This document shows positions 3,808 through 32,786 of a stretch of 33,221 nt of DNA, one piece after another. The notes under the pieces were generated by a model. That model saw nothing but the letters and a program-made list of their open reading frames with translations. It was not told where the DNA came from and ran no database searches. Numbering within the stretch: the first letter of the stretch is position 1; every line of letters begins with the position of its first letter. The position numbers were made by a program, and so were the translations under genes. The stretch comes from Verrucomicrobiota bacterium (GTDB lineage Bacteria > Verrucomicrobiota > Verrucomicrobiia > Limisphaerales > SIBE01), in contig VHCZ01000045.1 of assembly GCA_016871535.1 (NCBI GenBank), forward strand, positions 1 through 33,221. Reading direction: 5' to 3'.

Positions 3808-3883
3808 TGGTGGGTTGGCCGGGACTCGAACCCGGGACCAACGGCTTAAAAGGCCGCTGCTCTACCGACTGAGCTACCAACCC
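3808..3883 (-). tRNA. tRNA-Lys (anticodon UUU) with encoded CCA
   Basis: Read on the minus strand, the gene starts GGGTTGGTAGCTCAG and ends CCAACCC-A-CCA, so the 7-bp acceptor stem pairs fully and the CCA is encoded (3808-3810). The D-loop has TAGCTCAGTCGGTAGAGC. The anticodon arm is GCGGC-CTTTTAA-GCCGT, giving anticodon TTT. The T-arm is CCGGG-TTCGAGT-CCCGG. All landmarks are in place in 76 nt. An integrase pseudogene starts about 55 bp from the 5' end of this tRNA. Confidence 0.97.
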
Positions 3884-11380: not shown

Positions 11381-11406
11381 AAAAAGCGTGGCTGACCAGC
11401 CACGCT
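11380..11406 (-). terminator. Intrinsic terminator of the thioredoxin-fold gene
   Basis: AGCGTGGCTG (11385-11394) and CAGCCACGCT (11397-11406) pair perfectly. On the minus strand the stem is followed by a run of six T (complement of 11380-11385). It lies 28 bp past the stop codon of the minus-strand gene at 11434. It also directly follows the isomerase stop on the plus strand, where no T-run is present. Confidence 0.85.
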
Positions 11407-11433: not shown

Positions 11434-11874
11434 CTACTTCTTGATGATCTTGTCCAGGTCGGCGATCACGGCTTGCGTGCCGCTGCCGGGGCGATACCCG
11501 ACCTTTTCGCCGACTTTCTTCCCTTTGTCGTCCACGATGACGAGCGTAGGGAATCCTCGGACGCCGTATTTGCCTTTCATCTCTTCATTGGCCTTTTTCA
11601 AGGCGTCGGATTGCGGCTTCGCGCGCGGGAAATCCGCTTCCACCAGCACAAAGTGCTTGCTGGCGTAGTCCTTGAATTCCGAGGTGGGAAACACTTCCGA
11701 CTCCAACTTTTTGCAGAACCCTCACCAGTCCGAACCGGTGAAGTTGATGAGCACCAACTTTTTCTCCTTCTTGGCCTGGGTCTGCGCTTTGGACAGATCC
11801 GTCAGCCATTCGGCGGAGACGCTTAATTGGAACAGGGCGAGGCCTGCCATTAAGCCCAGGGGGAGTTTTCTCAT
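11434..11874 (-). CDS. Secreted thioredoxin-fold protein with in-frame UGA at the first CxxC cysteine (candidate selenoprotein)
   Basis: From ATG at 11874 the frame runs to TAG at 11434 with one internal stop, TGA at 11724-11722 (codon 51). Read as Sec (U), the product has 146 residues: a signal peptide (MRKLPLGLMAGLALFQLSVSA), a helix, then the strand KKLVLINFTGSDW-U-GFC-KKLE, where U-x-x-C occupies the thioredoxin active site (family norm: W-C-G-x-C). The fold continues with VLVEADFP, the cis-Pro loop RGFPTLVIVDDKG and GYRPGSG. Everything after the UGA is well preserved and in frame, which argues against simple decay. A hairpin with a G-starting loop sits 27 nt after the UGA. A terminator follows the gene. 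The alternative is a nonsense mutation (TGC/TGT to TGA) or a sequence error. The SelA/B/C/D machinery is not in this window. Confidence 0.72.
11681..11704 (-). promoter_or_regulatory. Possible bacterial SECIS hairpin
   Basis: In the mRNA the segment folds as GGAA (11698-11695), loop GUGU (11694-11691), UUCC (11690-11687). It can be extended past single mismatches by GU/AC and GG/UC pairs out to 11704 and 11681. The loop begins with G and lies 27 nt after the UGA, within the 16-37 nt window known for bacterial SECIS elements. The stem is short, so a chance hairpin is possible. Confidence 0.45.
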
Positions 11875-30980: not shown

Positions 30981-32786
30981 TTACGCCGCCGCCTCTGCGG
31001 CCACGTTGCGTTCCGCGGCGTTTTTCTGCTCGAATTCCTTGCACCACCCTTTGATTTCGGTGTCGTTGAAAATCTTGCCAATGACGCGGCGCAACAGTCC
31101 TTTGAGGCTGGCGTTCTCGAGATCGCGCAGGGAACGGATCGCTTCTTCTTTGTAAGTTTCCAGCAACGTTCTCGCCCGTTCGTCCGCCTTCAGTTCGGCA
31201 TAGAGCGCCTCGATCTGCTCCACGTCCACACCCGGCTTCGGCGCGCGGCGCCAGAGCGAATCCAGCAATTGCTTCTTTTCTCCGGACGCGCGCTCATGCG
31301 CTACGCCAAGAAGCAAGCTGGGGCGCATCCCGGCGATGTCGTTGGTTTCGCCCTTGACTCCCAGATCGCTCAGATCGTCGCGAATCTGATACGCGATACC
31401 GAGGGCTTCGCTGTAAGCGCGAAGCGTATTCTCAATATCTTCGTAGCCGCCGTCGCCCGACAGCGCGTGATTCCCGGATGCGCGGCTGCCTTCGGCGTAG
31501 AGAGCGCCCAGCTTCAACGCGACTTCGAAGGCCGGCGCAGTCTTCTTCCGGAAAATCTCCAGAACCTGCAGCGATGTCATCGGCTCGGGCTTCCGCGCCC
31601 AACACAATTCAGCGCCCTGGCCCCGGCAAAGCTGGCGCTGGCCTTCGGAAGCCACGCGCAGCATTTCCCCCTTTTGCTCGGCGCGCGCGCGGCACGACGC
31701 AATCAACCGATACCCCTCGCCGATCAGCAGATCACCGACGTTCAGCGCGACCGCGATCCCATGCTCCTCGTGCAAAGTCTTTTCGCCGTAGCGCAAGGCG
31801 TCGTTGTCTTCGATGTCGTCATGGATGAGGGAGGCCTTGTGGAAACATTCCACCGCCACGGCCACCTTGCGGATATCTTCCGGCAACGCAGCGCCCGGCG
31901 TATCCCGCAACGCTTGAAATGCCGCCACCGTCAGGAAGGGCCGCCAGCGTTTCCCGGCGCGCATGAGCCAGTCGCGCGCGATCTTCTCCGTCTCGCCTTC
32001 GCCCGGACCCATGATCAAGTCGAGCGAGGCGGGCGTGAACCAGAAATCCACTTCGTCCCGCAACGCGCTCAAATCCAGGCGGCGCGTTTGGTCGTCGCTG
32101 CTCAAGTGGATGTAGTCCCAAACCCAGTCCAAATCGACCGTGGTGTCGATGCAATCGTCCTGGAGCAGCGGCACCGCCACGCCGGGAATCGCCGCCGATT
32201 CCATGTATGGAAAAGCGCGCTCCAACACACTCAGACAACTGACGCCCACGATGGCCTCGATTTTGCCGGTCTGGATGAGCGACATCACGATGGCGGAGCC
32301 TTCGGCCACCAGCACGGCGTAACCGAGTTTCTCGGCCTCCGCCTGCAAATCCTGGATCGTGCACAGCCCGCATTGTTTGCACAGCAACCCGAATTCATCG
32401 AACGGCGCCGGGCACTTGCTCTCGACACGCAGACATTTCGGCAGGAGCAAAAGCCGCCGCTCGAAGGGAACCTGAGCGAGCGTTTCGCGCCAGAGTTCAT
32501 TGTTGATGAGCACGCCGATGTAATCCCGGTAAATCGGATCGCACTGAAGCATTTCAACGACACGATCAGCGTGCCCCTTCAATTCCTCCAGCGGCAACGG
32601 CGGCACCGGGTTGTGTTCGGCCACGTAATGACGGATGGATTGCAGGATTCGCGTGCGCTCGAACGGCGTTTGCGGAACATTCTTCTTGGGCGGGCGAAAC
32701 CGTTGCTGGACGACGTGCCGGGGAATGGCGAGGGGATTGAAGCTGCCGGCCGGCTTCATGGTGATTGGCTGGGTGACAGAACTCAT
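30981..32786 (-). CDS. DUF116 domain fused to a polyprenyl (isoprenyl diphosphate) synthetase
   Basis: 601 residues in two halves. Residues about 40-240 are a DUF116-like domain with a cysteine cluster KCLRVESKCPAPFDEFGLLC, then KQCGLC (Cys118, 125, 136, 139, 142) and Cys184 and Cys212, which suggests bound metal or an Fe-S centre. Residues about 255-600 are a trans-prenyltransferase: KRWRPFL, first Asp-rich motif HDDIEDND (Asp323, 324, 327) and second YQIRDDLSD (Asp470, 471, 474). The latter enzymes condense isopentenyl diphosphate onto an allylic primer. The role of the DUF116 half is unknown. The ATG is at 32786. Downstream on the same strand lie the antitoxin, Doc-like and toroid genes. 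Confidence 0.88.
   Translation of the reverse strand: MSSVTQPITMKPAGSFNPLAIPRHVVQQRFRPPKKNVPQTPFERTRILQSIRHYVAEHNPVPPLPLEELKGHADRVVEMLQCDPIYRDYIGVLINNELWRETLAQVPFERRLLLLPKCLRVESKCPAPFDEFGLLCKQCGLCTIQDLQAEAEKLGYAVLVAEGSAIVMSLIQTGKIEAIVGVSCLSVLERAFPYMESAAIPGVAVPLLQDDCIDTTVDLDWVWDYIHLSSDDQTRRLDLSALRDEVDFWFTPASLDLIMGPGEGETEKIARDWLMRAGKRWRPFLTVAAFQALRDTPGAALPEDIRKVAVAVECFHKASLIHDDIEDNDALRYGEKTLHEEHGIAVALNVGDLLIGEGYRLIASCRARAEQKGEMLRVASEGQRQLCRGQGAELCWARKPEPMTSLQVLEIFRKKTAPAFEVALKLGALYAEGSRASGNHALSGDGGYEDIENTLRAYSEALGIAYQIRDDLSDLGVKGETNDIAGMRPSLLLGVAHERASGEKKQLLDSLWRRAPKPGVDVEQIEALYAELKADERARTLLETYKEEAIRSLRDLENASLKGLLRRVIGKIFNDTEIKGWCKEFEQKNAAERNVAAEAAA

Follow-up and report, generated by a model that had tools for sequence, protein, structure and literature searches.

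Does the TGA that interrupts an otherwise open thioredoxin-like gene in this Verrucomicrobiota genome specify selenocysteine (Sec)? The gene lies on the minus strand of the window, by which we mean the whole 33,221-nt stretch of DNA that was analyzed. It runs from ATG at 11874 to TAG at 11436-11434, and its sole internal stop is a TGA at codon 51 (11724-11722). The initial annotation had described a frame broken only by this TGA, at the place of the first Cys of a C-x-x-C motif, and had expected automatic annotation to report a truncated 90-residue fragment. Frame reading and alignment agreed with the former statement, and ORF calling with table 11 agreed with the latter, yielding only a 90-aa fragment with a TTG start (11706..11434). 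With TGA translated as U, the protein begins MRKLPLGLMAGLALFQLSVSAEWLTDLSKAQTQAKKEKKLVLINFTGSDWUGFCKKL, the last 13 of these residues spanning the active site. The features of the locus are as follows.

11434..11874, minus strand: probable selenoprotein coding sequence of 146 residues with stop codon TAG, based on Pfam PF13098 and a frame that is conserved before and after the TGA in seven genomes.
11722..11724, minus strand: in-frame TGA, read as Sec51, first place of U-x-x-C; TGA in seven genomes of the order and in the more distant genome G670, TGC or TGT in 29 other aligned homologues.
11713..11715, minus strand: Cys54, the predicted resolving cysteine of U-G-F-C; an invariant column of alignment A1.
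11548..11550, minus strand: Pro109 of the GFPT loop, invariant in A1 and assigned to the cis-Pro position of the thioredoxin fold by its place in that fold.
11812..11874, minus strand: probable signal peptide, residues 1-21, with a hydrophobic N-terminus and a low pLDDT of 54-55 for residues 1-20.
11687..11698, minus strand: candidate apical hairpin of a bacterial SECIS element (bSECIS), GGAA-GUGU-UUCC, present in the minimum-energy fold with its loop 27 nt past the UGA, within published limits.
11385..11406, minus strand: hairpin resembling an intrinsic terminator, nine pairs followed by TTTTT, about 27 nt past the TAG; weak by count (1 found against 1.4 expected in shuffles).

Judged by eye, the signal peptide would be cleaved following SVSA. 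In seven relatives with the TGA and three with Cys, about 1.5 kb on each side of the homologue contained none of the window's flanking genes. Elsewhere in the window, a tRNA-Lys (3808-3883, minus) adjoins a gene of the phage integrase family (PF00589; 4106-4999, plus), a possible border of an integrated element. A single 601-aa frame (30981-32786, minus) matches both DUF116 and polyprenyl synthetase and appears to be a fusion.

Homologues were surveyed first in 40 relatives and then in 293 genomes of the same order, 209 of which contained one. One TGA within an otherwise open frame was identified in seven genomes of the order belonging to three families, namely the window's own genome, its congeners G001 and G002, G003 and G005 of the same family, and G037 and G061 from two further families. 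The codon position was identical in all seven (FTGSDW-U-G-x-C). Among the matches listed, every stop-bearing sequence contained one TGA. The homologue alignment suggested by the initial annotation placed Cys at position 51 in all 29 non-TGA rows, encoded by TGC (27) or TGT (2). When 388 genomes of the phylum were searched for the GSDW-TGA DNA pattern, nine matches were obtained, of which the window itself and G670, a member of the same class from a more distant family, were true homologues. The other seven were chance frames in which thioredoxin similarity was absent. The six TGA relatives within the order shared 49-58% identity with the window protein, a range that becomes 45-58% when G670 is included.

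Both the TGA form and a Cys homologue are carried by G003. No second homologue was detected in the window's own genome at E <1e-5, so that no close Cys copy substitutes for the selenoprotein there. A scan of the named genome contigs with the protein returned only distant Cys thioredoxins (25-36% identity) and no close relatives. In the phylogenetic tree the Sec forms did not group as one clade (three changes, weak support), and they may have had a single origin.

These comparisons bear on two readings in which the TGA is not a sense codon. A Cys codon, TGC or TGT, misread as TGA through a sequencing or assembly error would take a single base change from TGC, and the window does come from a fragmented assembly. 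However, the TGA occurs at the identical position in seven other, separately assembled genomes, and the probability of such an error appears negligible. A pseudogene or nonsense polymorphism, from which no more than the 90-aa TTG fragment would be produced, is in keeping with the output of standard ORF calling, but that start would omit the Sec codon and the first strand. Moreover, further stops or frameshifts were absent, and the TGA is retained across genera and families, with TAA or TAG never found among the matches listed. Among the seven TGA genomes, dN/dS was 0.07-0.42 before the TGA and 0.14-0.55 after it, a range covering the pairs with estimable dS, the remaining pairs having saturated synonymous sites. 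The stretch past the TGA was as protein-like as that ahead of it. Loss of function is thus highly improbable. The same-codon TGA in separate relatives is not explained by sequencing error or random nonsense mutation, and together with dN/dS below 0.6 on both sides where measurable it indicates neither an error nor a pseudogene.

The initial annotation had also proposed a search of the same genome for selA, selB, selC and selD, and all four were present (6.67 Mb, 460 contigs, 96.8% complete). The tRNA-Sec on contig C178 scored 68.6 bits with Infernal, and ARAGORN assigned it the anticodon TCA (UCA). SelA (391 bits) and SelB (323 bits) were encoded adjacent to each other on C102. SelD (370 bits) was encoded on C173 by a gene with an internal in-frame TGA of its own, in a U-x-x-K context (SSCAG-U-ASK). 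Among the 54 genomes of a panel, selB was detected in 6 of the 7 with the TGA versus 10 of the remaining 47 (Fisher p 0.0018, kinship not corrected). The TGA genome G061, the assembly of which is 79% complete in 1080 contigs, gave no detectable selA, selB or tRNA-Sec, while G670 contained selB and gave no tRNA-Sec at the strict threshold. Matches to selA and tRNA-Sec were obtained from G017 and G165 with no selB at E 1e-60, and to selA alone from G021; the assemblies may be incomplete, or the Sec trait may be partial there.

Other probable selenoprotein genes adjoin selC at locus L001 (G000:C178). One is SelW-like (minus, roughly 1710-1942) and encodes MSVEISIEYCTA-U-NYEPHA, its C-T-A-U being written TGC ACG GCT TGA. 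With C in place of U, it matched TIGR02174 at 69 bits against a cut-off of 34, and the CTAU-NY motif also adjoined selC in six additional genomes (L106, L108, L109, L113, L115 and L117). The other, starting at 2107 on the plus strand, encodes a ResA/TlpA-like secreted protein with WASW-U-GCRN (TGA near 2572) and a TPR-like tail; its nearest NCBIfam model, WAxxUGC_long, scored 162 bits, below the cut-off of 300. Since the same genome has UGA where standard selenoprotein families have Sec, Sec is the simple reading of the codon at 11724. At L001, a 483-aa frame (131-1582, minus), integrase-like as judged by eye, continues from the tRNA-Sec, and its arrangement suggests that selC may serve as an integration site.

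In the published bSECIS model, the apical loop has 3-9 nt with a G within the first two positions, the stem has 4-16 bp, the spacing from UGA to loop is 16-37 nt and the folding energy is -7.5 kcal/mol or lower (PMC13188914). The window fold with the candidate hairpin reached -11.7 kcal/mol over 60 nt. The bSECIS check proposed by the initial annotation therefore gave a hairpin that is compatible with the model but not discriminating, as 13 of the 29 Cys homologues passed a similar test and the hairpin was statistically indistinguishable from theirs. Synonymous-codon shuffles attained its folding energy in 32% of cases, and covariation in a fixed shared hairpin register was nil. Several positions near the TGA differed between the two forms. 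Leu57 was TTG in 7/7 Sec genes versus 4/19 Leu codons in Cys genes (p 0.0005, kinship not corrected), and Gly47 was GGT in 7/7 versus 6/29. Residue 53 in A1, the one directly before the C of U-x-x-C, was Trp in no Sec form, and TGG was used in 20/29 Cys forms. These biases may result from SECIS constraint or from shared descent.

The weak bSECIS evidence and the undetected machinery in G061 would fit readthrough of the UGA as a different amino acid (Trp or Cys by near-cognate decoding), and Sec insertion is itself deduced here from the genes. Nevertheless, the position is that of a catalytic Cys elsewhere, the genome contains a complete Sec system along with other standard selenoprotein genes, and TGA status associates with selB, all of which make such readthrough very unlikely. 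We conclude, with a probability of about 0.92, that the gene encodes a selenoprotein of thioredoxin-like fold. The Sec genes, the Cys in other homologues and the TGA conserved in relatives thus support the selenoprotein reading of the initial annotation.

With Cys at U51, the protein matched Thioredoxin_2 (PF13098) with E 8.7e-18 and 65 bits against a gathering cut-off of 27, and Thioredoxin_7 was matched too. The AlphaFold2 model built from 36 homologues had a mean pLDDT of 91.3, with 54-55 for residues 1-20 and at least 94 in all later blocks. DsbH (2JU5) was the best PDB match both by profile (E 3.3e-38; next 8.5e-13) and by structure with Foldseek (E 2.5e-12), where the reducing gamma domain of DsbD came next. 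A secreted thioredoxin had been proposed at first; the thioredoxin-like fold and the signal-like N-terminus agree with this, but the closest characterized relative in both searches is chlamydial DsbH, not a classical thioredoxin. The NCBIfam DsbH model NF043050 matched most of the protein, but the score of 119 bits falls short of the model's cut-off of 190; the protein is therefore called DsbH-like and not filed as DsbH.

DsbH of Chlamydia pneumoniae (2JU5, NF043050) shares with the window protein a secreted single thioredoxin domain and the location of C-x-x-C. The two proteins are 34% identical in the structural alignment, and DsbH has Cys at the first active-site position where the window protein would have Sec. 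The Sec-containing thiol:disulfide interchange protein WP_011366075.1 of PF13098 has the same Pfam domain and U-x-x-C placement, the likeness being drawn from its description in selenoprotein inventories (PMC13188914, PMC9312934). Sec-containing thioredoxins of PF00085 (U-x-x-C) also have the thioredoxin fold with Sec at the attacking position, whereas the window protein carries a probable signal peptide, and its PF13098 score of 65 bits exceeds the 41 bits obtained with PF00085. Weak similarity in the thioredoxin domain was found with two much longer fusions, the TsoB rhodanese/DsbD fusion-like selenoprotein NF045694 (48 against a cut-off of 805) and the Trx7/PDZ selenoprotein NF041199 (21 against a cut-off of 300).

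According to PMC5193440, DsbH is an oxidoreductase of the periplasm that works in the reducing direction, and as of 2016 it was unreported outside chlamydiae. Given this, and because DsbH is the closest solved relative in sequence and fold with the reducing gamma domain of DsbD next on fold, homology and the structural model make a DsbH-like reducing role probable, at a lower level of confidence than the selenoprotein assignment. The selenoprotein might instead act as an oxidant, an isomerase or a peroxide-reducing enzyme, for PF13098 spans several redox directions and function is read here from homology alone; we consider these roles unlikely, though far less so than readthrough with another amino acid.

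For a DsbH-like reductase, the following mechanism can be proposed. UGA codon 51 would be decoded as Sec by SelB and tRNA-Sec, and the N-terminal signal peptide would direct export to the periplasm, where the protein is predicted to fold as a DsbH-like thioredoxin domain. Sec51 would then provide the attacking selenolate, and Cys54 would resolve the mixed selenide-sulfide. The enzyme would most likely reduce disulfides of the cell envelope, with both the reducing direction and the substrates presumed by analogy, and a membrane electron carrier of the DsbD/ScsB type is a putative electron donor that could recharge it. On a broader view, the protein could represent a Sec subtype of DsbH-like periplasmic reductases, forming a selenium-based extracytoplasmic reducing route with the Sec TlpA-like protein encoded beside selC, and Cys and Sec would have been exchanged repeatedly within one orthologue family; we see the chances for and against this as evenly balanced.

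Inventories of prokaryotic selenoproteins include U-x-x-C proteins of PF13098, PF00085 and many thioredoxin-like families, as well as SelW, SelD and UGC-type TlpA proteins (PMC13188914, PMC9312934). Novelty is therefore smaller than the initial annotation had implied, as the PF13098 entries with U-x-x-C show. In the literature searched, DsbH was not found linked with selenocysteine, nor was a DsbH-like Sec subtype found named. Verrucomicrobia are not mentioned in the main text of either inventory.

With the present analysis, one more lineage is seen to have the full Sec system, accompanied by several probable selenoproteins. As standard annotation yields a 90-residue fragment without the catalytic Sec, it would give a wrong picture of the lineage's envelope redox system. 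Within the order, one small soluble enzyme occurs naturally as a series of close homologues with either Sec or Cys, and with both forms present in G003, the enzymatic benefit of Sec becomes directly testable.
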